Positions 4,779 to 32,238 of a stretch of 35,561 nt of DNA are shown piece by piece. The DNA lies in NCBI GenBank assembly GCA_031289055.1, contig JAITQE010000012.1:1-35561 (forward strand), in the 5' to 3' direction. Position numbers and translations under genes: made by a program. The stretch's first letter is position 1. The number at the start of each line of letters is the position of its first letter. This DNA comes from Candidatus Endomicrobiellum porotermitis (GTDB lineage Bacteria; Elusimicrobiota; Endomicrobiia; Endomicrobiales; Endomicrobiaceae). The notes beneath the pieces were generated by a model. The model was not told where the DNA came from. It did no database searches and saw only the letters and a program-made list of their open reading frames with translations.

Positions 4779-6030
4779 TATAAGGAATACGAAGAGCCTG
4801 CAAAGGGGATATGGGCGCAAGCTAAAGGATCAATTATTGATACTGATAAAGATGTGGAATCGCCGCAGACGTTTAAAGTAAACAATACTGGGTTGTTAGC
4901 CGGGTTTGACATGATGACAAGTTCAACGGCTATGGCGGGAGTGTACGTAAAACAGAACAAGAGTTCAATAAGTAAGAGGAGTAACCTACATAAGGGCGAA
5001 GTTAATAGTTGGGGTTTGGGTTTATACGGCGGTGTAGTCAAAGAGAAATACGACGTAAAGGGATTGTCGTAGTTTAGCGCAGACAATTACGAGACGACGA
5101 GATGCTTAACAAGTGAAATAAAAAAAGCGAAGGGAGAATTTAGCGGCGTTAGCGGGATAGTGGATATAGAAGCAGGGTATAGGATAGGGAGCAACAGCGT
5201 ATTGGGCAAGGTAAAGCTGAGACCTTATATAGGAGCAGGATTAGCGTTGATACACGCGGACGGAGCAGACATCTGGAGTTTAGAAGTAAAGGCGAACGAT
5301 TATGCTAGAGCGGGATTAGCGGGAGGAATAGGATTTACAGGTGAGGGAAGAAGGTTTAGATGGAATGCGTCTTGCGGGCTAGACTATGCGTTGAGTGGGA
5401 AAAATGGGGAGATAACGAGCAGATTTATGGGAGGATATAGTTTGCCTAACGAAGTAGCAAACAAAGATTTTCAGTCAAGGAGCGTAACTCTAGATGCTGT
5501 GAGCGTCAGGAGCGATATAGGCTTTTGGTATTATGTGTTAGACGGGCTAGAGGCGTATTGTAGCGGTGATATAAAGTGGTCGTCAATGGCAAAATATGTA
5601 TGGGAACATAGGAGTAAGATATTCGTTTGGTAAATGGATAGACAAGAATATATCGGAGATAGAAACCGGCAATAAGAAGATAAAACAGTTTAGGATAAAT
5701 GCGGTGTTGTTTGAGTTTGACAAGGCGGATATAAAGCCTGAGGCGGAGGAAGAAATAAAGGCGTTAGCCAAGAAGATAGGAAAGAGGTACAAGTTTGAGA
5801 AGATAATAAGGATAGAGGGTCACACGGATTCGCATGGGAGCGACGCGTATAATAATAGGTTGTCGTTGGCGAGGGCGCACGCTGTGCATGAGGTGTTTGC
5901 CAAATATGGTATAGATGTGGCGAAGATGGAAAAGGTTGGGCATGGAGAAAGCAAGCCGATAGATAGCAACGAGCATGAAGAGGGAAGGGCAAAGAACAGG
6001 AGAGTCGAGATATTTGTTGATTTGTATTAA
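4761..6030 (+). pseudogene. 5'-truncated autotransporter-type barrel with OmpA-like C-terminus, stop and frameshift
   Basis: The frame from 4761 begins inside a protein: GIWAQAKGS is the usual first strand of an autotransporter beta-domain. Barrel-like strands follow (GLLAGFDMM, WGLGLYGGV, VDIEAGYRIG, LRPYIGAGLALI). A TAG at 5070-5072 interrupts the frame after KGLS, yet the same frame continues to 5633. At the A4 run 5591-5594 the frame slips; removing one A restores SSMANMYGNIGVRYSFGKW. The last part is an OmpA-family peptidoglycan-binding domain (VLFEFDKADIKPEAEE, IEGHTDSHGSDAYNN, LSLARA, KNRRVEIFV). No signal peptide or passenger remains, so a normal outer-membrane product is unlikely. 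The region is markedly rich in AGG, ATA and GCG codons compared with neighbouring housekeeping genes. A short soluble OmpA domain from ATG 5596 is conceivable. Confidence 0.85.
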
Positions 6031-6156: not shown

Positions 6157-6162
6157 TATAAT
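6157..6162 (+). promoter_or_regulatory. -10 box placed for leaderless transcription of the methyltransferase
   Basis: A perfect TATAAT ends 7 bases before ATG 6170, so the expected transcription start falls on or next to that ATG. No clear -35 is seen at 16-18 bases and there is no Shine-Dalgarno before either ATG (6161 or 6170). Confidence 0.4.
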
Positions 6163-6169
6163 GCTTGCT

Positions 6170-7756
6170 ATGGAAGAAACCATAGAATATTTAACTGTTA
6201 AAAAAGCCAGCCTTTGGGCTACGGATTACATAGGGAAAAAAGTTACAACTTCAAATATTTCTTATTTGATTCAGTATGGTCGTATTGCCAAAGTAGGGCA
6301 TAACGGCTCAACGCAAATTCCCAAACCAGAACTTGTGAAATACTACCGTTCCTTAAGCAAATCAAGAGAAACCGCTTGGAAAGAAAAACTTGGAAAAGAC
6401 TTAAACTGGAAATTGTCTTTTGACAATTTAAAAGAGTCTGACACTACCAAACACATTCACAGGCTTCACCCATATAAAGGTAAGTTTATTCCGCAGCTTG
6501 TTGAATATTTTTTAGACAATCATACCGATACGTTTAAAACAGAAAAATATTTTAGTAAAAACGATATTGTGTTAGACCCTTTTTGCGGTAGCGGAACTAC
6601 TTTGGCGCAAGCAAATGAGCTTGGGTTGCACGCAATAGGCATAGATGTGTCGTCTTTTAATGCTTTTATTTCAAATTGCAAAATTACCGAATATGACGTT
6701 AAAAATTTAGAAAAGCAAATAAATCAAATAACAATTAAGTTATACGCCAAAGTAAAACTCTTAAAATCCGTAGATTTTGAAAATAGTCTCGCGGAAAAAC
6801 TAAAACAATTTAATGATAAATACTTCCCTGTCCCTGAATTCAAATATAAGGTAAGACAAAACCTTATTGATGAGAATAAGTATGGATTGGAAAAAGAGAA
6901 GCAATTCTTGCCGATTTATAAAAAGTTGATCGCGGATTATAAGATAGCGCCGCTTAAAAAAAATCCTAAAACATTTTTAGAAAAGTGGTACGTTAAAAAT
7001 ATACAAAATGAGTTAGACTTTGTTTTTGACGAAATAAAAACAGTTAAAGACGCAAACATAAAGAAAATACTCGCTTTAATACTCAGGCGCGCAACGCGTT
7101 CATGCAGAGCGACAACGCATTCAGATTTGGCAACGCTTGTAAAGCCGAAATCAACTGCTTATTATTGTTCCAAACACGGCAAAATCTGTAAACCTATATT
7201 TTCAATTATGAAATGGTGGTGCTCTTATTCAAAAGATACTGTTAAAAGATTAAAAGATTTTGAAAAACTAAAGACAAACACGCGCCAATATTGTTTAACC
7301 GGAGACAGCAGAACTATAAATATTGTTTCTGAACTTTCAAAAAAACAAAAAGATTTTGCGCAAGTGTTGCAAAAACAAAAAATTTCAGGCATATTTTCAA
7401 GCCCGCCTTACGTTGGGCTTATAGATTATCACGAACAACACGCTTACGCCTATGACTTATTTGGTTTTGAAAGAAAAGATGAGCTTGAGATAGGTCCGCT
7501 ATTTAAAGGGCGAGGGAAAGACGCTTTAAAGAGTTATGTTGAAGGCGTTTCAAATGTTTTAAATAATTGTAAAAAGTATTTAAAAGATGGTTACAATGTT
7601 TTTTTAGTAGCAAATGATAAATATAATTTATATCCTGAAATAGCAAAAAAAGCAGGAATGAAAATAGTAAATCAATTTAAACGCCCCGTTCTAAACCGGA
7701 CAGAGAAAGACAAAGGCGCGTATTCTGAAATTATTTTTCATTTAAAGGCAAGGTAA
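6170..7756 (+). CDS. SPPY-type site-specific DNA methyltransferase
   Basis: Transfers a methyl group from S-adenosylmethionine to an exocyclic amino group of DNA, most likely N4-cytosine, judged from the SPPY motif. Numbered from ATG 6161: a small N-terminal DNA-binding-like segment (TVKKASLWATDYIGKKVTT, about 12-60); the family signature HIHRLHPYKGKFIPQL (98-113); motif I DPFCGSGTTLAQANELG (139-155) with IGIDVS; a Cys/His-rich middle (SCRATTHSDLATL and YYCSKHGKICKP, 314-345); and motif IV SSPPYVGLIDYHEQH (413-427). Motif I precedes motif IV with a long insert that probably holds target recognition. I prefer ATG 6170 because 6161 overlaps the -10 box. The stop is one base from the next ATG, so it is co-transcribed with the ATPase/DUF4435 gene. 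It is intact. The target sequence cannot be read from the gene. Confidence 0.88.
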   Translation: MEETIEYLTVKKASLWATDYIGKKVTTSNISYLIQYGRIAKVGHNGSTQIPKPELVKYYRSLSKSRETAWKEKLGKDLNWKLSFDNLKESDTTKHIHRLHPYKGKFIPQLVEYFLDNHTDTFKTEKYFSKNDIVLDPFCGSGTTLAQANELGLHAIGIDVSSFNAFISNCKITEYDVKNLEKQINQITIKLYAKVKLLKSVDFENSLAEKLKQFNDKYFPVPEFKYKVRQNLIDENKYGLEKEKQFLPIYKKLIADYKIAPLKKNPKTFLEKWYVKNIQNELDFVFDEIKTVKDANIKKILALILRRATRSCRATTHSDLATLVKPKSTAYYCSKHGKICKPIFSIMKWWCSYSKDTVKRLKDFEKLKTNTRQYCLTGDSRTINIVSELSKKQKDFAQVLQKQKISGIFSSPPYVGLIDYHEQHAYAYDLFGFERKDELEIGPLFKGRGKDALKSYVEGVSNVLNNCKKYLKDGYNVFLVANDKYNLYPEIAKKAGMKIVNQFKRPVLNRTEKDKGAYSEIIFHLKAR

Positions 7757-7757
7757 G

Positions 7758-9986
7758 ATGATGAAAGAGCAATTTTTAAATTTTTTAGAAACTTCATCGA
7801 GTCAGATACAATCGCATAAACAGATTGCGCTTGATAATGGAGTAAATAAAGATGCGATTGAATTGCATGATAAATTGATTGATTATTGCTCTAAACTGAA
7901 ATATATTGTGCAAAATACAGAATTAACAATTAATTATGTAAATAATTTTCAAGTTGATATAAAGCAGGCATTAAAATGCTTGCCATATATAATAGGCAAT
8001 ACGAATCTTCAACTTCATCATAATAAAGAACAGAATAAAGAACAGATTAAAAGCAATATAGAAAAGCAAAAAGATAATCTATCTAAACGATTAGAATCAT
8101 TACGATTTAATCTTGATTTCTTCAAAAAATTAGATTTTTTCAGCGATAATATTGTAGCGATAGGGGCTAATGGAAGTGGAAAAACGACTCTTTCTGATAA
8201 ATTAAAACAATACTTGCCAAAATCAAGCGTTGTTATTTCTGCGCAAAGAATTCTCCTTATCCCTACGTTTGATGGGGTTTCAAATTTTAATCAAACCGAT
8301 AAAAATCTCAAACAAACGCAACAAGCAGACAAATCAATGAGGAATACGTTTTCTATGACTAACAAAGATTGGTTTAACCCTGTACAAACGCTTGCGCGCG
8401 AATTTGGTAATTTAATTGCCAATCTTTTTGCAGAAAGAAACGTACAGAGAAATGAATATGTGAATTCATTGCCAGAGGGCAGTACTATTACAATAACAAA
8501 GCCAAAGACGAAACTAGACGCGGCTTTAGAAATATGGAATTTTTTAATTCAACACCGAGTATTAGAATGTAGTGATGATGGTAGTAATCTTACTTTAAAA
8601 ACAACTTCAAAAACAACTTCTGGGGAAAATTATCCAGCGCATCAAATGAGCGATGGAGAGAAAGTCGCGCTTTATCTAATCGCGCAAGTATTGCAAGCGC
8701 CTAAAAATGGATTCATTATTGCAGATGAACCTGAAATGCACTTGCATAAAGCTATATTAGAAAAATTATGGGATAGATTAGAGCAAGAACGGCGGGATTG
8801 TATTTTTATATATTTGACGCACGATTTGGATTTTGCAACAAGTAGAAATGCAAAAAAAGTTTGGATAAAATCCTATACTCCTCCCGAAAAATGGGATATT
8901 GAAGGTATTCCCAAAGAAAATGAATTGCCGGAACAATTATTGATGGAGCTGTTTGGTAGCCGTAAAAGTATTCTATTTTGCGAAGGTGAACGAGATGGGA
9001 TTGATTACCAAATATACAAAATTCTATTCCATAAATACACAATAACCCCTGTTAGAACTTGTCGTGATGTAATAAATTATACAAAAGCATTTAATAAACT
9101 TCCCAATATCGTAATAAAAGCATCTGGTATAATTGATTCAGACTACCATAGTGCAAGATTAGATGCTTTGAAATGTGAAAACATATTTGCCTTGCCAGTC
9201 GCCGAGATTGAAAATCTTTTATTAGATGAGAAATTTTTAGAATTGGCTGCGCGCGAATTTAAGGTGACTGATGATAAGGCTGTTGATAATATTAAACAAG
9301 GCATAATGCAAGAATTTGAAAAAAATTTAGAATTACAAGTATCTAATTATGTGTCAGCAAAAATTGATTGCCATTTCAAAGATTCACATCTAAATAAAGG
9401 AAATAATAAAAAAGAGATTAAAGACAAATTTGACAACTTTGTAAATGAAATAAAAATTTGCGATTGGCATTCGCAAAGACAGGAAGAATTGAAAAAAATT
9501 ATTGAAAGCAAGGATTACTCAAAAGTTTTGGCCGTATATAATAATAAAGGGTTAAAAAAAATAGTCAATGACCGCTTTGAGATTAAAAATTTTACGGAAA
9601 GAGTCGTTAAACTTTTACAATCAAATAAAGAAGCGCAAGAGATTATTAGGAAAAAGCTTCCAGAAGATTTAAAATGGCAAGATAGTTTGAGAGGTTTTAT
9701 GTTAAAAGAAGAACTTGAAACTACGGCTTTCCTTGCCAGAATAGACGTCAAAGAAGATGAAAAAGAAAAATATCTCGCGGATATCAACGGCATGTTTGAT
9801 TATATTGAAATTTTGCAAGAACCCGACGTTACTGAGTTAAATCCTACAACGCATGTTACTGAACTTAGAAACGTTTGGAGAGAAGACGTTGTAAAATCGT
9901 GTCCGAGAGAAGTTATAGACCAAATGTTAAACGGATCTCCTTTGAGGGAAGGAACTTTTTATAAAATACAAAAGGTTATAGCGTAA
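7758..9986 (+). CDS. AAA/ABC-type ATPase fused to a DUF4435 (TOPRIM-like) domain; candidate defence effector
   Basis: 742 residues. An N-terminal helical, Lys/Glu/Gln-rich segment (1-125) precedes an SMC/ABC-like ATPase: Walker A GANGSGKTT (136-144), signature MSDGEKVALYL (297-307), Walker B GFIIADEPEMHLH (318-330) and H-loop LTHD (353-356). From about 400 a DUF4435-like domain follows: ILFCEGERDGIDYQIY with E409, GIIDSDYH with D460 and D462, and LPVAEIENLLL (479-489). The E and DxD pairs are the acidic pattern of TOPRIM nucleases. In PARIS defence an ATPase (AriA) works with a DUF4435 nuclease (AriB), and fused forms are known. The size and order fit, but the 130-residue N-terminal extension is not what I expect of AriA. 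It lies one base after the methyltransferase and 3 bases before corA. It could instead be the restriction partner of the methyltransferase. Confidence 0.8.
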   Translation: MMKEQFLNFLETSSSQIQSHKQIALDNGVNKDAIELHDKLIDYCSKLKYIVQNTELTINYVNNFQVDIKQALKCLPYIIGNTNLQLHHNKEQNKEQIKSNIEKQKDNLSKRLESLRFNLDFFKKLDFFSDNIVAIGANGSGKTTLSDKLKQYLPKSSVVISAQRILLIPTFDGVSNFNQTDKNLKQTQQADKSMRNTFSMTNKDWFNPVQTLAREFGNLIANLFAERNVQRNEYVNSLPEGSTITITKPKTKLDAALEIWNFLIQHRVLECSDDGSNLTLKTTSKTTSGENYPAHQMSDGEKVALYLIAQVLQAPKNGFIIADEPEMHLHKAILEKLWDRLEQERRDCIFIYLTHDLDFATSRNAKKVWIKSYTPPEKWDIEGIPKENELPEQLLMELFGSRKSILFCEGERDGIDYQIYKILFHKYTITPVRTCRDVINYTKAFNKLPNIVIKASGIIDSDYHSARLDALKCENIFALPVAEIENLLLDEKFLELAAREFKVTDDKAVDNIKQGIMQEFEKNLELQVSNYVSAKIDCHFKDSHLNKGNNKKEIKDKFDNFVNEIKICDWHSQRQEELKKIIESKDYSKVLAVYNNKGLKKIVNDRFEIKNFTERVVKLLQSNKEAQEIIRKKLPEDLKWQDSLRGFMLKEELETTAFLARIDVKEDEKEKYLADINGMFDYIEILQEPDVTELNPTTHVTELRNVWREDVVKSCPREVIDQMLNGSPLREGTFYKIQKVIA

Positions 9987-18481: not shown

Positions 18482-18506
18482 GTAAAATAAAAAAATGAAG
18501 GTTGTG

Positions 18507-19694
18507 ATGAAACAAATAGTAAGAACGACTTATCTTGAACGATTAAAAAAATATAAAAATCAAAAAATAATAAAAATAATAAGTGGAATTCGCCGTTGTG
18601 GAAAATCAACGATTCTGAAGATGTTTATTGGTTATTTATTAAAAAGTAACGTGAAACAAGAACAGATAATATTTTTGAGTTTGGACGACGTAAACTTAGA
18701 ACATTTATTAGATTATAAAGTTTTGCATAAATATGTGTCTGACAGACTATTAAAAAATAAAATGATGTATATTGTCCTTGATGAAATACAAAACGTTCCA
18801 AGTTTTCAAAAAACTGTCAACAGCTTGTTTTTAAATGAGAATGTAGATATTTATATAACCGGCTCAAATGCTTATATGCTTTCAGGAGAGTTATCCACGC
18901 TGTTATCTGGCAGATATGTTGAGATTCAAATGTTGCCTTTGTCATTTAAAGAATATTTTGGAGCAAGAGGCGGAAACAAGGACGAGTGTTTTAACGACTA
19001 TTTAAAATTCACATCTTTTCCATATGCGGCAACAATAAGCGACCCTGAGATAATTAACGATTATCTAAGAGGGATATATAGTTCTATACTCTTGAAAGAT
19101 GTTGCACAGAGGAAAAAAATATCAGATTTAACCCTTCTTGAAAGCTTAGTAAAGTTTCTGTTTGATAATATTGGAAATATTGTCTCGCCAAAAAAGATAA
19201 GTGATACATTGTCTTCAAATGATAGAAAAACAACCTCTATGACAATAGAAAAATATATAAACGCGCTTTGCGAAAGCTTCATCTTATCTAAATGCCAAAG
19301 ATATGATATAAAAGGTAAACAATACTTGAAATCATTGGAAAAGTACTATTTGGCCGATATAGGATTTAGACATGTCTTGTTGGGCAATAAAAATTTGGAC
19401 ATAGGGCGTATATTAGAGAATATTGTATATTTAGAATTGCTTAGAAGAGGATATAAAGTCAACATAGGTAAAGTTGACAATCTTGAGATTGATTTTTTCG
19501 CGCGATCTCAAAAAGATATTGCGTATTATCAAGTATGTCAAACGGTATCTTCAAAAGATACTTTTGATAGAGAAATAAATCCTCTACAAAAATTACGCGA
19601 TAACTACAATAAATTTATTATAACATCAGACAAAATATTACAATCTGTAAACGGAATTGAAACAAAAAATATAATAGATTTTTTATTGGAGTAA
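18507..19694 (+). CDS. AAA_14 ATPase with DUF4143 domain
   Basis: Member of the large, poorly characterised family of ATPases common in accessory DNA of anaerobes. From ATG 18507 it has 395 residues; the in-frame ATG at 18495 has no ribosome site, whereas AAGG lies 7 bases before 18507. Walker A is GIRRCGKST (27-35) and Walker B is YIVLDEIQ (87-94). A sensor-like TGSNAYMLSGEL and SGRYVEIQMLPLSFKEY follow. The C-terminal DUF4143 has RILENIVYLELLRRGYKV and an LEIDFFA...YYQVCQ pattern, which resembles a degenerate PD-(D/E)XK nuclease fold. It is a single-gene unit between the helicase and the nitroreductase, with its own promoter. Function unknown; mobility- or toxin-antitoxin-related roles have been proposed for the family. 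Confidence 0.88.
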   Translation: MKQIVRTTYLERLKKYKNQKIIKIISGIRRCGKSTILKMFIGYLLKSNVKQEQIIFLSLDDVNLEHLLDYKVLHKYVSDRLLKNKMMYIVLDEIQNVPSFQKTVNSLFLNENVDIYITGSNAYMLSGELSTLLSGRYVEIQMLPLSFKEYFGARGGNKDECFNDYLKFTSFPYAATISDPEIINDYLRGIYSSILLKDVAQRKKISDLTLLESLVKFLFDNIGNIVSPKKISDTLSSNDRKTTSMTIEKYINALCESFILSKCQRYDIKGKQYLKSLEKYYLADIGFRHVLLGNKNLDIGRILENIVYLELLRRGYKVNIGKVDNLEIDFFARSQKDIAYYQVCQTVSSKDTFDREINPLQKLRDNYNKFIITSDKILQSVNGIETKNIIDFLLE

Positions 19695-19840: not shown

Positions 19841-20341
19841 ATGGACATTTTACTTAAGAGAAAGAGCGTTCGCAAATATACTGGAGAAGACGTTAAAAAA
19901 GAAGATTTGGACTATATTTTAAAAGCGGGGATTTCCGCCCCTACTGCTAGAAATTCAAGATGCGCGTCTTTTCTTGTAATAAAAGATAAAGAAACTCACA
20001 AAAAACTCGCCGCCGTTCATCAAGCTGCTCAGATGATTTTACAAGCGCCTTTGGCTGTTTTGGTTGTTGGAGACAAAAATTTAGCTTATCAAGATTATTT
20101 ACCTCAAGATTGCGCCGCGGCCACTGAAAATATACTGTTAGCTGCAACGGCAAAAGGGTACGGCTCTGTTTGGTGCGGAGTATACTCAAATAAAGAAATA
20201 TCAGAAGCTGTAGAAAAGCTTTTAAATCTTCCTGAAAACATAAAAGCATTTTCGCTTGTGGTGATAGGTAAGTCTGACGATAATAACCCTCCCCAAGACA
20301 AGTGGGATCCGTCAAAGATTAAGCACGAGGTTTGGAAGTGA
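19841..20341 (+). CDS. Nitroreductase-family FMN oxidoreductase
   Basis: 166-residue FMN-dependent NAD(P)H oxidoreductase; the substrate cannot be told from sequence. Seen: the N-terminal FMN phosphate-binding run KRKSVRKYTGEDV, the SAPTARNSR segment, the DCAAATENILLAATAKGYGSVWCGVY helix and turn, and a C-terminal VVIGKSD followed by a Pro-rich tail. The start has a strong AGGAGAT site. Its TGA overlaps the argS GTG (GTGA), so both are translated from one message. Length and motifs are normal for the short type. Roles in redox balance or flavin chemistry are guesses. Confidence 0.85.
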   Translation: MDILLKRKSVRKYTGEDVKKEDLDYILKAGISAPTARNSRCASFLVIKDKETHKKLAAVHQAAQMILQAPLAVLVVGDKNLAYQDYLPQDCAAATENILLAATAKGYGSVWCGVYSNKEISEAVEKLLNLPENIKAFSLVVIGKSDDNNPPQDKWDPSKIKHEVWK

Positions 20342-21996
20342 TAAAACAAAAAGTAACAATCGCTTTAAGCGGCGTAATCGCTAAATATTTGGAATCTAAA
20401 GGCGTAACGGAAAGCGTTAATTTTACGGTAGAGGTTCCGCCGAAAAATATTGACGCGGATTTTGCGACCAACGCGGCTATGCTTATATCTAAAAAAGTTA
20501 AAATAAATCCTAGAATTACAGCTGAAGAAATAATAGGCATTATATCTAAAGAACTTCCCAATCTTATAGAAAAATCTGAAATTGCAGGCGCTGGGTTTAT
20601 AAATCTTCACGTTAAAAACGATGTTTTGTATAAAGAGTTAAAAACGATTCTTAAAGAAAAAAATAAATATGGAAGCACGGCGGCAAACGCCAAAAAAAAG
20701 ATTTTGGTGGAATTTGTCTCCGCAAACCCGACGGGACCTTTACACATAGGACATGGCAGAGGCGCGGCGATAGGCGATTCTATCGCAAGGATTTTAAAGC
20801 ATTTGGGATATAGCGTCTCAAGAGAGTATTATTTAAATGACGTGGGAAACCAAATGCTTGTTTTGGCAAATTCCGTTGAAATTCGTTACAAGCGGCTTAA
20901 AGGCGAGAAGCTTGAGTTTCCTGCGGATCATTATCAAGGCGATTATATAGTTGATATTGCTAAAAGGCTTATTGCCGAAGGCGGGAAAATTGAAGAAATA
21001 GATTTTAGAAGAGAATCCGTAAAAGATATTTTAAAAACAATAGAAGACGATTTAAAAAATTTTGCCGTTGAGTTTGACGATTGGTTTTATGAAGAAACAA
21101 TTGCATCGGTTAAAGATGAGAACGGCGAAACTGACGTTGATAAAGATTGCCTGTATCTTTTAGAAAAAGGCTACGCTTATGAAAAAGACAACGCTTTATG
21201 GCTTGCTTCAACAAAATTTGGAGACGATAAAGACCGGGTTTTAAAACGAAGCGACGGCAGATATACTTATTTGGCTTCAGATGTCGCATATCACAAGAAT
21301 AAATTTGAAAGAGGTTTCAAGAAACTCATAAATCTTTGGGGGGCGGACCATCATGGCTATGTCGCAAGAATTAAAGCTTGCGTCCAGATGTTTGGTTTTA
21401 GTAAAGAAGATCTAGATATTATTTTATATCAGCTTGTTTCGCTTGTACGCAACGGTCAGCCTGTCGCAATGTCGACAAGAAGCGGGGAGTTTATCACGCT
21501 AAAATCCGTTGTTGACGAAGTAAGCAAAGACGCCTGCAGATTTTTCTTTTTGCTTCGCGCGCCGGATTCCCAATTAGAGTTTGATTTAGAGCTTGCCAAA
21601 AAACAATCTAGCGAAAACCCTGTTTTTTACGTTCAATACGTAAACGCAAGGTGTAACTCTATTTTTAAAGAGGGTAAAAACAGAGCGGATGTTGTTAGCG
21701 ACGATGAAAAAGTAAATTTTGATTTGCTTAACTTAAAAGAAGAAAGAGATTTAATAAAGCAGCTTGCCGCGTTCTATGATACGTTGGCATTGTCAGAAAA
21801 GACAATGAGTCCGCATCACTTTACGGCGTACTTAATGGAGCTTGCGGATATTTATCATAAATTCTATGAGAAATGCAGAGTTTTAACAGACGACGCCGCT
21901 CTTGCTTCGGCAAGGCTTAAGTTGATTGAAGGCGTTATGATAATAATTCGGACAGGACTTGGTTTGCTTGGAGTTTCTTCTCCGGACAAAATGTAG
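20338..21996 (+). CDS. argS: Arginyl-tRNA synthetase
   Basis: Class I synthetase that charges tRNA-Arg. I take GTG 20338 (552 residues), which overlaps the nitroreductase stop as GTGA; a TTG at 20332 would only add two residues. The N-terminal Add-1 domain (about 1-100) is followed by the catalytic core with VEFVSANPTGPLHIGHGRGA carrying HIGH, EYYLNDVGNQ, and LWGADHHGYVARI. The usual KMSKS is replaced by MSTRSGEF, as is common in ArgRS. The DALR anticodon-binding domain closes the protein (YVNARCNSIFKE onward). Intact. Confidence 0.97.
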   Translation: MIKQKVTIALSGVIAKYLESKGVTESVNFTVEVPPKNIDADFATNAAMLISKKVKINPRITAEEIIGIISKELPNLIEKSEIAGAGFINLHVKNDVLYKELKTILKEKNKYGSTAANAKKKILVEFVSANPTGPLHIGHGRGAAIGDSIARILKHLGYSVSREYYLNDVGNQMLVLANSVEIRYKRLKGEKLEFPADHYQGDYIVDIAKRLIAEGGKIEEIDFRRESVKDILKTIEDDLKNFAVEFDDWFYEETIASVKDENGETDVDKDCLYLLEKGYAYEKDNALWLASTKFGDDKDRVLKRSDGRYTYLASDVAYHKNKFERGFKKLINLWGADHHGYVARIKACVQMFGFSKEDLDIILYQLVSLVRNGQPVAMSTRSGEFITLKSVVDEVSKDACRFFFLLRAPDSQLEFDLELAKKQSSENPVFYVQYVNARCNSIFKEGKNRADVVSDDEKVNFDLLNLKEERDLIKQLAAFYDTLALSEKTMSPHHFTAYLMELADIYHKFYEKCRVLTDDAALASARLKLIEGVMIIIRTGLGLLGVSSPDKM

Positions 21997-22085
21997 GATA
22001 TAGTTTTTATCATCGCAACTTATAGACCGCGTATTAATAAACGCGACGTATTGTGTATTTGCGAGAAGATTTGCTGCGAGGTAAT

Positions 22086-23666
22086 ATGCGTAAACTGGTT
22101 CTGGCTATTTTCGCAATAGCGTTTTTTCTATTGCCGCTTTTTGCAGACGTTTCTGTTACGCCTTATGGCGCTGCAGAAACGGTTTCAGGCAGTTGTTTTC
22201 TTTTAGATGCAGGAGATGAAAAGTTTATAGTTGATTGCGGTCTTTTTATGTCTGATAGCGACGATAAAGACGCGAAAAACTTTGCTTTAGAAGAATTTTC
22301 AAATTTTAATATTCCAAAAGAGCTTATAGACGCGAGATCTCTTTTTTTAACGCATGCCCATTTAGACCACAGCGGCAGAATTCCTCTTCTTATATATAAA
22401 GGTTTCAAAGGCAAAATTTACTCTACAAAAGCCACAAAAGAGCTGACGCTTGCGCTTTTTAAAGAAAGAAATGGTTTTGATTTGATAAAAAGAAAATGGT
22501 TCTGGTCGGAAAGCCAATACGAGAAAGCTGAAGATAAAAACGGCACTGTCGCCGCGCATTGGACTGACGAATGTAAGAGAAGCATTAAATCTATAGCTTA
22601 TTCAAAAGATGGCGCGTTGCTAAAGGATTTAGAAAAAAACGGAAGAGTTAAATTTTTGTTATGTAAAAATTGCTGTGAGAGAGAAGCTGAAAAAATAGCC
22701 GAAAGATTTGTTACTGTAGATTATAATGAAGAGATAAAGATTTCCGACAAGTTAAAAGCGAAGTTAATAAACGCAGGGCATATTCCGGGATCCGCTAGCG
22801 TTATTTTCAGCGCCGATAAAGAGAAGGTTCTATTTTCTGGAGATTTGGGAAGCGGTCATTCAAAATTCAACGGCGAGTTTGAAATACCGGAGCCTGCCGA
22901 TTTAATTTTTATGGAGGCTACTTACGGCGGCAAAATTAATAACAATGTTGTCGGCGAGTACGAACTGTTCAGAAAAGATTTAAAAAATGCTTTGGAATCA
23001 GGGAAGACTGTTTGGATTCCGGCGTTTGCTTTAAACAGGACGCAGGAAGTTTTATATGAGTTAAAGCTTATGCAGGACAATGGATATATATCAGCAAAAG
23101 TTCCGATTTATTCAGTGTCGCCTTCGGCGAACGCGATAACGTATTTGTATCAGAAAGAGGTTTCAAAGAAAGAACATGAATCGCGGGAATATAGCGAACG
23201 CGAGTGGTTTTTGGACAGCGTATACCAAAAACAATCTATTCTTCCCGAAAATATAAGATTACAGATGATAAGAACTTATAACATGCAGATGATTTTATTT
23301 TCAGCGAGCGGGAATATGGATAAAGGCAAATCTGAACAGCTTGCGCCAATAATGCTGTCCGATAAAAATGTTTTTGTGATGATAGTAAATTATGTAGAGC
23401 CTTCAAGTTCGGCTGGACTTATTTTGCGCGATAAAAAACCTCGTTTCGGTATAAAAAAACTTGCCGCGAAAGTAAAAAGGTACAACGCGTTCTCGGATCA
23501 TGCGGATTTTGAAACGCTTCAAAAATGGTTATCAAAGCAAAGTAAAGACGCAAAAATATACGTAATACATTCAAATAAACGAAATACGTCTCAAACTGTC
23601 GGGCTTTTACGGGAAAAAGGCTGGACCGGAGCAAACGGCGCAAAACTTGGAGAAGCAGCGCATTAG
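22086..23666 (+). CDS. Beta-CASP metallo-beta-lactamase-fold hydrolase with signal peptide
   Basis: 526 residues from ATG 22086, which has GAGG upstream; an ATG-less longer frame starts at 22053. Residues 1-20 form a signal peptide (MRK, hydrophobic IFAIAFFLLPLFA, then DVSV). The enzyme core has HxHxDH as THAHLDHSG (89-97), GHIPGSAS (231-238), SGDLG (251-255), MEATYGG, the beta-CASP region (WIPAFALNRTQEVLYEL) and RMMBL motif FSDHADF near the end, with a final IHSNKR. Relatives are cytoplasmic RNA-processing nucleases of the CPSF/Int11 type. Here an extra block of about 60 residues lies between the HxHxDH and GHIPGS motifs and includes CKNCC (193-197). An exported member is unusual. It starts an overlapping run with the TPR gene 2 bases downstream. 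Confidence 0.88.
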   Translation: MRKLVLAIFAIAFFLLPLFADVSVTPYGAAETVSGSCFLLDAGDEKFIVDCGLFMSDSDDKDAKNFALEEFSNFNIPKELIDARSLFLTHAHLDHSGRIPLLIYKGFKGKIYSTKATKELTLALFKERNGFDLIKRKWFWSESQYEKAEDKNGTVAAHWTDECKRSIKSIAYSKDGALLKDLEKNGRVKFLLCKNCCEREAEKIAERFVTVDYNEEIKISDKLKAKLINAGHIPGSASVIFSADKEKVLFSGDLGSGHSKFNGEFEIPEPADLIFMEATYGGKINNNVVGEYELFRKDLKNALESGKTVWIPAFALNRTQEVLYELKLMQDNGYISAKVPIYSVSPSANAITYLYQKEVSKKEHESREYSEREWFLDSVYQKQSILPENIRLQMIRTYNMQMILFSASGNMDKGKSEQLAPIMLSDKNVFVMIVNYVEPSSSAGLILRDKKPRFGIKKLAAKVKRYNAFSDHADFETLQKWLSKQSKDAKIYVIHSNKRNTSQTVGLLREKGWTGANGAKLGEAAH

Positions 23667-23668
23667 AT

Positions 23669-24649
23669 ATGTTAAGAAAAATACCAGATAAAAATTTAAA
23701 ATATAGTTTTATTATAACTTTATGTTTTATTGCAGCGGTTGTCTGCGGGTATTTTATTAGAGATTTAAATTATTCAAGAGAGTATCTATTGCAAAAAGCG
23801 AGCAAATATTATTCTAATGAAGAACATTTCCGCGCGGCAAGATATTTTACTAAGGTTATAAAATTAAACGTTTCGGATCCCGAAGTCTATAAAAAATACG
23901 GTACTTCTCTTTTGAAGTTGGGCAACTATGCTTTAGCAGCGAAATACTTTGGACTCGCTTCATCTGATTCGTACGATGACGACTCTTACTATTTTCTTGG
24001 AGCCGCTTTGTACCGCAAAGCTTCAGGTCCGGGCGATAAAGAGACTTTCTTGCAAGCTGTGGAATATATTGAAAAAGGCATCGAGTTAAATCCAGATTCG
24101 GAAAAGTTATATTTGTTGGCTGGTTTATGTCTCCGAGCAGTCGGGCTTTATGAAAAAGCTAGAGATTTTTACAATAAAGCTTTGACGTCTAATAAATTCA
24201 ACAAGGCCGGTTTTTACAATTTAATTGGCAATACTTTTGACGAAGAAGGCAATTATAAAGAAGCGATGTTGTATTACGAAAAAGCAAGCAAGCATGACAA
24301 TTCGTTTGTTGTGGCGTTTTGCAATATGGGAGACATGTTTGTGAAAATGAACGATTATGAATCAGCTCTGCAAAACTATCAAAAAGCCTTAGAAATTGAC
24401 GGAAAATTTATAGCTCCGCATATAAAAATCGCAAGTCTTTATTACTATAAAAATAATTTTGCAGAATCTGCCCGGGAGGCTTTAAAAGCGTTAAAAATAA
24501 ATACAGCGGATAATGAAGCCAATTATATTCTTGGAATGTCGTATAAAAAGCTTGGCAAATATAAAGAAAGTTTAGAATATTTTAAAAAAGCGGCGTTTTA
24601 TGGAAACGATAAAGCCGTAAAAGAAATTAAGAGGCTGAATGTTTTATAA
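23669..24649 (+). CDS. Membrane-anchored TPR protein
   Basis: 326 residues. A short N-terminus is followed by one membrane helix (FIITLCFIAAVVCGYFI, about 14-30), then a string of about seven tetratricopeptide repeats from about residue 43 to the end. Typical repeat pieces are AARYFTKVIKLN, PEVYKKYGTSLLKLGNYALA, AMLYYEKASKHDNS, ALQNYQKALEID and SLEYFKKAA. TPRs usually scaffold protein partners; the anchor would place them outside the inner membrane. It starts 2 bases after the beta-CASP gene, and the next gene overlaps its end by 11 bases, so the three are tightly linked. Partner proteins are unknown. Confidence 0.85.
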   Translation: MLRKIPDKNLKYSFIITLCFIAAVVCGYFIRDLNYSREYLLQKASKYYSNEEHFRAARYFTKVIKLNVSDPEVYKKYGTSLLKLGNYALAAKYFGLASSDSYDDDSYYFLGAALYRKASGPGDKETFLQAVEYIEKGIELNPDSEKLYLLAGLCLRAVGLYEKARDFYNKALTSNKFNKAGFYNLIGNTFDEEGNYKEAMLYYEKASKHDNSFVVAFCNMGDMFVKMNDYESALQNYQKALEIDGKFIAPHIKIASLYYYKNNFAESAREALKALKINTADNEANYILGMSYKKLGKYKESLEYFKKAAFYGNDKAVKEIKRLNVL

Positions 24650-24953
24650 TAAAAAATATCTGTTTTTTATTATCGCTTATTTAATGAATCTTGTTTTGTG
24701 TTTTTTCATTAACAGTCGTTTCGCTTTTGCGGGGATAGATTTTAACTTAATTCTAGGCTCGGTTATAATTTACGGAATCATATTGATTTTTTGTTTTGTT
24801 GCCGCTCTGACGTCGTTATGCTCGGTTAAGTTTTTTAGACGGATATTTAAATTAAAAACTAACAATTTTGTGGCAAAATTTTTATGGAACGTTTTTGCCG
24901 GGTTTGTTTATTTGCTTATGTTGATTACTTTTATTAAGGTTACGGAATATTAG
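24639..24953 (+). CDS. Three-helix membrane protein, unknown function
   Basis: 104 residues with three hydrophobic segments: YLFFIIAYLMNLVLCFFI, FNLILGSVIIYGIILIFCFVAAL and FVYLLMLITFI, separated by a basic loop (KFFRRIFKLK). No family is recognised. It overlaps the TPR gene by 11 bases and ends directly before the ATG of the exonuclease gene, which supports it being a real gene despite its lack of motifs. Possibly a partner of the TPR protein in the membrane (inference from position only). Confidence 0.7.
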   Translation: MFYNKKYLFFIIAYLMNLVLCFFINSRFAFAGIDFNLILGSVIIYGIILIFCFVAALTSLCSVKFFRRIFKLKTNNFVAKFLWNVFAGFVYLLMLITFIKVTEY

Positions 24954-25550
24954 ATGAAGTATGATTTTGAAGTAAAACCTGTTTTTACAAAGAATCCAGA
25001 AAATTTAGTTTTTCTAGATATTGAAACGACGGGGCTTGATCCAGCGAAAGGCGCAAAGATAATAGAGATTGCCATGCTTAAAACCGTAGACGGGGATGAG
25101 CATAGATATGAAAGTTTTGTAAATCCTGGCTTTCCTATACCTGAAGATTGTTCCAAAGTGCATTGTATATATGATGATATGGTTAAAGATGCTCCTTTTT
25201 TTAAACGTATCGCAAAAGACGTTATTTCCTTTATAGGGAACGGAATTGTAGTGTGCCATAACGTTTCTTTTGATTTGCTTTTTGTCTGTAAAGAACTTTC
25301 TCAAGCGGGCGTTCTTTTAAAAAATATTTTTTACGTTGATACTTTGAAACTTGCAAGGCAGTATTTTAATTTTGAATCCAACAAGCTTGGCAGTATTGCA
25401 AACGCCATGGGCATAGAAGTTGAGCTGAGCCACAGAGCGATGGCTGATGTCGTTACAATGAAAGAAGTCGCTAAGCGACTATTTGCCAATATGTATAGAA
25501 AAGATATAGATATAATACAACCGTTAGCGTACGAGCGCAAACAAATATGA
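24954..25550 (+). CDS. DEDDh 3'-5' exonuclease, DnaQ/PolIII-epsilon-like
   Basis: 198 residues. The DEDDh motifs are visible as FLDIETTGLDP (Exo I), VCHNVSFDLLF (Exo II) and HRAMADVVTMKEVAKRL (Exo III with the catalytic His). Family members proofread in the DNA polymerase III core or trim DNA or RNA. The protein is shorter than E. coli epsilon (about 243) and I see no clear clamp-binding motif, so assignment to the replicase is uncertain. Its ATG follows the preceding stop with no gap. It ends the run that begins with the nitroreductase. Confidence 0.85.
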   Translation: MKYDFEVKPVFTKNPENLVFLDIETTGLDPAKGAKIIEIAMLKTVDGDEHRYESFVNPGFPIPEDCSKVHCIYDDMVKDAPFFKRIAKDVISFIGNGIVVCHNVSFDLLFVCKELSQAGVLLKNIFYVDTLKLARQYFNFESNKLGSIANAMGIEVELSHRAMADVVTMKEVAKRLFANMYRKDIDIIQPLAYERKQI

Positions 25551-26137: not shown

Positions 26138-26404
26138 ATGGCTGAAAAGGTGCAAAAAGTTGGAGTAAAGAGAGAATCTGGATATCTCTATTTTATTGAC
26201 AAACAGGGCGATGTCTCAAGAGCTTTAATGGCAAGAGGCGGGAAAAAAGGCGGGAAACCTTCAAAAATAGCAAAAATAGGGCTTAAGAAAGAAAAAGGCT
26301 ACCTGTACTTCGTTGACAAGCAGGGCGATGTCTCAAGATCAGCTATGAGCAGAGGCGGTAAAAAGAAGGCTAAAAAAACCGTAAAGAAAGGTAAAAAAAG
26401 ATAG
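26138..26404 (+). CDS. Duplicated GYLYF-VDKQGDVSR basic protein
   Basis: 88 residues built of two copies of one unit. Copy 1 has GYLYFIDKQGDVSRALMARGG (about 16-36) and copy 2 GYLYFVDKQGDVSRSAMSRGG (about 57-77), each preceded by VGVK or IGLK plus a charged pair. Copies are linked by KKGGKPSK and followed by a Lys-rich tail (KKKAKKTVKKGKKR). A small beta-rich module with a basic tail suggests nucleic-acid binding; I recall similar short proteins in several uncultured lineages but not a function. A strong AGGAGG site precedes the ATG, so expression is probably high. A 9-bp hairpin follows. Confidence 0.75.
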   Translation: MAEKVQKVGVKRESGYLYFIDKQGDVSRALMARGGKKGGKPSKIAKIGLKKEKGYLYFVDKQGDVSRSAMSRGGKKKAKKTVKKGKKR

Positions 26405-31371: not shown

Positions 31372-32238
31372 ATGAAAAAGTTGGTTTTATTGTTTATTTT
31401 TATTTGTTTGGTTACGGGAAGCTCTTTGTCTGTGGCTGTCAGGCAGAAAGAACATTCTATAGGCTTTGAAATAAACGGATATAAGTATCAAGAAGTTAAC
31501 AATAAAGGCGAAGAATTCATGTCTATTGAAGGAGAAAGGCGCGGGCTATCTTACGAATATTTATCGCGTAAAAGTGCCGAGAAATCTTCATTCTGGTCAT
31601 ATCAAGTCGCTCTTTCTTTTGGAGATCTTGTTTATGATGGATGTTCGCGAGACGGAGCGATAAAATTTAAATTAAATTGCCGCGCGGATTTTTATCAAGA
31701 ACATAGATTCTTATACGGTTTAGCATTGCCTTTCAATGAATATAAGTCTGCGGTAATGCCATATTTAGGTTTTGGTTTTAGAGGGTTGTTTAATAGATTA
31801 AAGGATTATTGCTACATTAAAGGCGGAGAACCTGCCGAAATTTCCGGATATGACAGATATTCAACGTATTTATATATACCGTTGGGTATAATAGCGAGGT
31901 CTGATTTGGATAATGGTTGGTTGTTCAATTTAAACCCTGAATTTGATCTGTTTTTGATAGGTCGGCAGACCTCGTGCATAGATATTGAAGGAAAAGGGGA
32001 GACTACAGAAAACTTTCAACATAAAGGATACGGTTTTAGAGCGTCAGCTAGGATTTCTAAGGAAATAGGAGAGAGTTTTGCAGTATTCCTTGAGCCGTTT
32101 GTAAAATACTGGAATATAGATGAGTCCGGGAAAAAGTATTATTCTGTTGTGGAATCTGGAATAGTAAAATATAAATATCTTTTTGAACCAAAGAATACCG
32201 CAATGGAGTACGGCGCTAAGATAGGCATTACGTTTTGA
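31372..32238 (+). CDS. Exported beta-barrel outer-membrane protein
   Basis: 288 residues. Signal peptide MKKLVLLFIFICLVTGSSLSVA (about 1-22), then a body of alternating aromatic and polar strands (SFWSYQVALSFGDLVYDG, AVMPYLGFGFRGLF, YSTYLYIPLGIIAR, GYGFRASARIS, MEYGAKIGITF). The last residue is Phe, the usual C-terminal signal for the barrel assembly machinery. I estimate 10-12 strands. No specific family or substrate is recognised. It is intact, unlike the autotransporter-type gene at 4761-6030. The promoter of rplM overlaps its stop codon. Confidence 0.75.
   Translation: MKKLVLLFIFICLVTGSSLSVAVRQKEHSIGFEINGYKYQEVNNKGEEFMSIEGERRGLSYEYLSRKSAEKSSFWSYQVALSFGDLVYDGCSRDGAIKFKLNCRADFYQEHRFLYGLALPFNEYKSAVMPYLGFGFRGLFNRLKDYCYIKGGEPAEISGYDRYSTYLYIPLGIIARSDLDNGWLFNLNPEFDLFLIGRQTSCIDIEGKGETTENFQHKGYGFRASARISKEIGESFAVFLEPFVKYWNIDESGKKYYSVVESGIVKYKYLFEPKNTAMEYGAKIGITF

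Follow-up and report, generated by a model that had tools for sequence, protein, structure and literature searches.

A putative Sec-exported beta-CASP hydrolase with a conserved His/Cys insert in the family Endomicrobiaceae

Main finding

The gene at 22086-23666 on the forward strand of the window (the whole stretch of DNA analysed here, the 35,561-nt contig JAITQE010000012.1 of Candidatus Endomicrobiellum porotermitis) probably encodes a Sec-exported, zinc-dependent and RNase-type beta-CASP hydrolase of the TTHA0252/CPSF73 type, located in the periplasm or at the cell surface. The kind of enzyme is already known, and the novelty lies in its predicted location and in an insert between two of the metal motifs. 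The literature was searched for exported beta-CASP proteins with no relevant result and, within the reach of these searches, a role outside the cytoplasm has not been reported for any beta-CASP enzyme. The protein was compared with 51 distinct orthologues and with 30 canonical beta-CASP proteins of the same phylum (Elusimicrobiota). Near relatives were found in Endomicrobium sp. and Candidatus Endomicrobiellum devescovinae.

Gene and domain architecture

The reading frame and its putative ribosome-binding site are located as follows.

22086-23666 (+): coding sequence of the beta-CASP protein, 526 aa and a stop codon, supported by Pfam domains, relatives and purifying selection
22078-22081 (+): Shine-Dalgarno-like GAGG, 4 nt upstream of the ATG and retained in the closest relatives (L002-L004)

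The original prediction had placed the gene at these coordinates and had given it an MBL/beta-CASP/RMMBL architecture, and both statements were found to be correct. In a Pfam search Lactamase_B, Beta-Casp and RMMBL all scored above their curated cut-offs (PF00753 at 48.2 bits and PF10996 at 45.9 bits), and among diverse orthologues Beta-Casp and Lactamase_B were observed in 21/21 and RMMBL in 20/21. The Beta-Casp scores of the orthologues are 39-66 bits as against about 100-147 bits in intact canonical proteins. The beta-CASP domain of the orthologues therefore differs from the canonical one and the substrate may have changed. Among the Endomicrobium-type pairs nearest to the window gene the overall dN/dS was 0.12-0.27; judged by its conservation, the frame is not a chance ORF. 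Upstream GTG and TTG starts (22053 and others) were ruled out as the relatives share the signal-peptide ATG, and the reverse strand was ruled out as coding because it holds many stops. This is the sole beta-CASP protein found in the 1.035 Mb source assembly, and no RNase J above the cut-off was found in the source genome.

Catalytic site

The residues expected of a beta-CASP active site, named according to the scheme of PMC3095777, are located as follows.

22233-22235 (+): motif 1, Asp50, in all members covering the position
22353-22370 (+): motif 2, H90-A-H92-L-D94-H95, the two-zinc site, ligands kept in 50/50
22779-22781 (+): motif 3, His232, 51/51
22842-22844 (+): motif 4, Asp253, 50/51, with Asn in L013 (genome G007)
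22914-22916 (+): beta-CASP motif A, Glu277, 51/51
23499-23501 (+): beta-CASP motif B, His472, 50/50
23568-23570 (+): beta-CASP motif C, His495, 49/50, with Asp in L013

All ten motif residues were observed to be intact in 48 of the 49 members that are readable at all ten, the exception being L013. A passage in PMC3095777, citing Callebaut 2002, describes histidine in motif C as typical of RNA-acting members and valine as the DNA-type residue. The window protein has the RNA-type state at H495, as do 49/50 members. The closest solved protein by sequence is the RNase TTHA0252, and this is also the best fold match of the modelled core (TM 0.82 on the target) in a model of the mature protein with a mean pLDDT of 71 and with much of the core at 80-93. 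By all testable features of its sequence the window protein is a member of the beta-CASP family, and nuclease activity would be expected of it.

Export signal

The start of the protein was assessed by its hydropathy, its charge and the conservation of its cleavage site.

22086-22145 (+): predicted Sec-type signal peptide, residues 1-20, with a predicted signal peptidase I cut between A20 and D21, supported by hydropathy and cleavage-site conservation

The N-terminus reads MRKLVLAIFAIAFFLLPLFA and, after the predicted cut, DVSV, where the first strand of the MBL fold comes directly; the fold begins at residues 22-24 and no linker follows the hydrophobic start. The maximum 12-residue Kyte-Doolittle mean is 3.20, which is on par with the peak of 3.33 in an outer-membrane-type protein at 31372, as against at most 1.9 in the cytoplasmic-type proteins checked in the window. 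The hydrophobic start was observed at the same position in 50/50 orthologues with a 5' end (hydropathy 2.3-3.7), residue 20 (-1) being alanine in 41/50 and residue 18 (-3) being V, L, I or A in 45/50. The features of a Sec/signal peptidase I substrate are thus all present, namely a positive n-region, a hydrophobic core and suitable residues at -3 and -1, and the source genome encodes signal peptidase I.

The convincing signal peptide noted in the original prediction is a feature of the family and not of this copy alone. A start codon opens the signal peptide in 49 of the 50 orthologues with a 5' end, the start having been lost in L032, and every one of these 49 has the signal as against 0/30 of the canonical relatives. 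The latter begin at most about 10 residues before the fold, without a comparable hydrophobic stretch. The homologues were checked for a conserved start past residue 20 and the close relatives for a missing signal peptide, and neither was found.

The insert between metal motifs 2 and 3

22473-22700 (+): insert region, residues 130-205, a putative structural zinc site with the conserved signature H158-W159-x3-C163...C193-x2-C196(C197), absent from canonical relatives

The alignment places 137 residues between H95 of motif 2 and H232 of motif 3, compared with 77 in TTHA0252, and the expected stretch of about 60 extra residues is therefore real. It takes the place of the canonical 'DSA' segment after motif 2 and was found in 0/30 of the canonical relatives in the same phylum. 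Each position of the signature H158-W159-x3-C163...C193-x2-C196 is kept in at least 50/51 orthologues, C163 being histidine in one of them, and W140 is also invariant. The CKNCC cluster that had first drawn attention to this region holds up in part. Its first two cysteines are invariant, but the last (C197) is cysteine in 30/51 orthologues and replaced in 21/51, so that CKNCC itself is not the signature. The dN/dS of the insert, in pairs with the window gene, is 0.10-0.12, and its constraint equals that of the catalytic core.

The four putative ligands H158, C163, C193 and C196 are conserved together, which suggests a structural zinc, and no match to a DsbA-family protein was found in the source genome, which weakly favours zinc over disulfides. 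Judged by its conservation, the insert is likely to bind a structural zinc. The structure prediction that had been proposed for residues 135-210 gave a modelled core around an insert with pLDDT below 50 over nearly all of residues 129-197. Homology of the insert to solved proteins was not convincing, the best hit being to an unrelated G-beta protein (E = 0.02).

Gene context

In the branch of the window the usual gene order was observed to be argS, beta-CASP, a TPR protein, a small hydrophobic protein and a DEDDh exonuclease.

20332-21996 (+): argS, upstream syntenic neighbour, of interest as genomic context only
23669-24649 (+): TPR protein with an N-terminal membrane anchor, by Pfam and its hydrophobic start, a beta-CASP neighbour in most Endomicrobium-branch loci
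24639-24953 (+): small hydrophobic protein, 104 aa, overlapping the end of the TPR gene, with no family match, a neighbour in many loci
24954-25550 (+): DEDDh exonuclease of the RNase_T family, without a signal peptide, a syntenic neighbour

The gap between the beta-CASP stop and the TPR start codon is 2 nt and the TPR gene overlaps the gene for the 104-aa protein, which suggests co-translation. The beta-CASP gene thus most likely sits in a small operon of predicted envelope proteins. The DEDDh exonuclease is probably not part of the exported unit. Some members depart from the usual order, such as G068, where the exonuclease gene is located elsewhere. L012, L013 and L017 keep the beta-CASP enzyme but have a degraded TPR gene or none, and the other branch has different neighbours, among them a 720-aa protein that carries a spermine/spermidine synthase domain.

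Further downstream, at 26138-26404 (+), we noticed a basic protein of 88 aa that consists of two nearly identical repeats ([K/R]xxGYLYF[I/V]DKQGDVSR...), which is conserved downstream in the family and has no Pfam match.

Distribution and decay

A profile search matched 60 of the 96 genomes of the class, where full orthologues were found only in the family Endomicrobiaceae. Nearly all members of this family carry the exported beta-CASP gene, including genera with genomes of 1.4-2.4 Mb. PF10996 was not listed in any other family of the class, and canonical beta-CASP proteins occur in less closely related families of the phylum. In the tree the orthologues fall into a single clade (support 100/100). 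A scan of genome contigs seeded with the window protein returned only Endomicrobium, and the plasmids, phages and viral contigs gave only canonical homologues at about 20-30% identity, which rules out a mobile or phage gene. As far as these collections reach, the orthologues are restricted to the Endomicrobiaceae. One canonical beta-CASP protein, without signal or insert, was observed in a genome of the genus of 0.4 Mb that is 63% complete (L021, G034, contig C1); the tree places it with a protein from a Clostridia plasmid, and its contig may be a binning contaminant.

Within the endosymbiotic genus, the full genome size is estimated at 1.05-1.56 Mb (median 1.34) where an open copy is present, and genomes without one have a median of 0.77 Mb. 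Four genomes of this genus hold a syntenic pseudogene after argS, and the argS tree puts these pseudogenes on two or more separate branches. Earlier stages of decay were also observed. L013 keeps an open frame with two changed zinc ligands (D253N and H495D), and L032 (G066) has lost the start codon. Genomes of free-living size carry the gene and reduced endosymbionts have lost it or hold pseudogenes; by this distribution it is an ancestral trait of the family lost by endosymbionts, and does not represent an adaptation to living within a protist. Most lineages of the Endomicrobiaceae are described as free-living gut commensals (PMC11257099). The original proposal that the enzyme scavenges nucleic acids in the service of an endosymbiont is not supported by the same pattern, and an ancestral trait that endosymbionts lose also goes against the proposal that it modifies host RNA.

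Comparison with known systems

The nearest described relative is the RNase TTHA0252 of Thermus thermophilus (PDB 2dkf, 3iek and others), a member of the bacterial YSH1/CPSF73-like beta-CASP family which is reported to be a 5'-3' exo-RNase, probably with endo activity (PMC4229858). It has MBL, beta-CASP and RMMBL domains and the same zinc and beta-CASP residues as the window protein but begins at the fold, without a signal peptide, and has no HW-C/CxxC insert. The core domains and the motif C histidine are also shared with archaeal aCPSF1/FttA and eukaryotic CPSF73/INTS11, but these lack a signal peptide, carry KH or C-terminal partner domains and work on transcripts inside the cytoplasm or the nucleus. 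Identity with aCPSF1/FttA was ruled out (TIGR03675 at 147.8 bits against a cut-off of 580.2), a signal peptide being present in place of the KH domains. The best NCBIfam score, together with high fold similarity, was obtained for the Type VII CRISPR nuclease Cas14 (NF045584). However, the 190.5 bits fall short of the cut-off of 800 and the match ends before the Cas14 C-terminal part, which rules out this identity; no CRISPR genes were seen among the beta-CASP neighbours examined. RNase J (TIGR00649) belongs to the same superfamily and the first 100 residues align, but at 26.3 bits against a cut-off of 400 this identity was ruled out as well.

Proposed function and alternative explanations

In the reading that we favour, signal peptidase I would cut the signal peptide and the enzyme would act in the periplasm or on the cell surface, where it would most likely trim or degrade nucleic acid arriving at the envelope, be it single-stranded RNA or another kind. 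The HW-C...C-x2-C insert would hold a structural zinc at the edge of the active site, altering substrate access or specificity. Translation beside the membrane-anchored TPR protein and the small membrane protein may help to hold the enzyme in an envelope complex.

The exported fold might instead have become a non-nuclease hydrolase, for example one whose substrate is a phosphate ester or some other compound of the envelope or gut. The diverged beta-CASP domain and surroundings of the active site, where the insert replaces the 'DSA' segment, are consistent with this, and free-living relatives have no obvious periplasmic RNA substrate. This reading nevertheless appears unlikely, as motifs 1-4 and A, B and C are intact, including those characteristic of beta-CASP nucleases, and the best fold match is to RNA nucleases. 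Much less probable is an uncleaved anchor with the catalytic domain facing the cytoplasm, as in RNase Y, which would tether an mRNA-decay enzyme to the membrane. With neither an RNase J above the cut-off nor a second beta-CASP protein found in the genome such a cytoplasmic role could be vacant, but the window protein has positive charges ahead of the hydrophobic stretch and lacks them immediately behind it, which predicts an N-in/C-out orientation. Most members have a V/L/I/A-x-A cut site, the fold starts without a linker, the L017 orthologue has a lipobox-like cysteine (IVGC) and the canonical cytoplasmic relatives have no such start. The charge pattern and the V-x-A site thus speak against the membrane anchor that was first offered as an alternative, and an anchor with a cytoplasmic domain is unlikely. 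Even if it remained uncleaved, an N-in anchor with this charge pattern would put the enzyme outside the cytoplasm.

A competence-linked variant, in which a periplasmic nuclease works with DNA uptake (ComEC, DprA), for instance by removing RNA or by trimming nucleic acid on its way in, seems to us quite unlikely, though it has some points in its favour. The presence of an open beta-CASP copy agrees with that of comEC in 39/42 and of dprA in 39/42 genomes of the genus, and the controls agree less (rimO 28/42, the ATP/ADP antiporter family 25/42); a link to the ATP/ADP antiporters themselves was ruled out as they do not track with the beta-CASP gene. In G018 comEC, dprA and beta-CASP are all pseudogenes, in G007, with the enzyme that has lost two zinc ligands, dprA was not found, and the pseudogenes arose on more than one branch as described above. 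Furthermore, both conservation and expression of competence genes have been reported for Endomicrobium (PMC8809381). However, genome reduction, which takes out many genes at once so that their losses are correlated, confounds the pattern: in the survey of G018 (loci L140-L159, L180-L219 and L237-L239) 41 of 365 scorable genes (11%) are broken, and those recognized by search or by eye include comEC, dprA, cinA-like, rimO-like, murJ-like and beta-CASP genes. The 42 genomes share ancestry and hence are not independent, incomplete assemblies add noise, and the controls are two families, of which rimO scatters for its own reasons. The families of the class outside the Endomicrobiaceae lack the beta-CASP enzyme, no competence genes were seen in its gene neighbourhoods, and the motif C residue is the RNA-type histidine. 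The co-loss is therefore a lead and not a result. The fuller proposal, in which a lineage-specific exported beta-CASP ribonuclease with a zinc insert serves periplasmic DNA uptake or nucleic-acid scavenging and is lost with comEC and dprA as endosymbionts drop competence, is likewise doubtful.

Other loci in the window

At 7758-9986 (+) we observed a PARIS-like AriA-AriB fusion with AAA_21 and DUF4435 domains (PADLOC AriAB, 389 bits), preceded by a type II DNA methyltransferase at 6161-7756. Its C-terminus carries a GatC domain (PF02686, residues 665-736) and it adjoins gatA/gatB; it looks like a defence module inserted before gatC with read-through into gatC; an internal ATG (MLKEELETT) could start GatC alone. 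An AAA_14/DUF4143 gene at 18495-19694 (+), a PADLOC candidate (PDC-S01, 515 bits), lies between uvrD and a nitroreductase gene. The latter two are adjacent without it in three other loci (L033, L035 and L066), and it is therefore probably a recent insertion in the lineage of the window. At 5160-6030 (+) a beta-barrel-like ORF (5160-5633) overlaps an OmpA-domain ORF (5596-6030) in a different frame, and the pair is possibly one OmpA-type gene split by a frameshift.

Significance

The beta-CASP nucleases described so far act inside the cell, on RNA or DNA belonging to that cell. If an entire family exports a version whose active site is intact, the beta-CASP fold would also be at work outside the cytoplasm. 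The stepwise decay in related symbionts, from loss of the start or of zinc ligands to a pseudogene and finally to absence, runs largely alongside that of the competence genes and offers a natural experiment on the role of the enzyme. The cultivated Endomicrobium proavitum very probably carries an orthologue, which makes the question testable.
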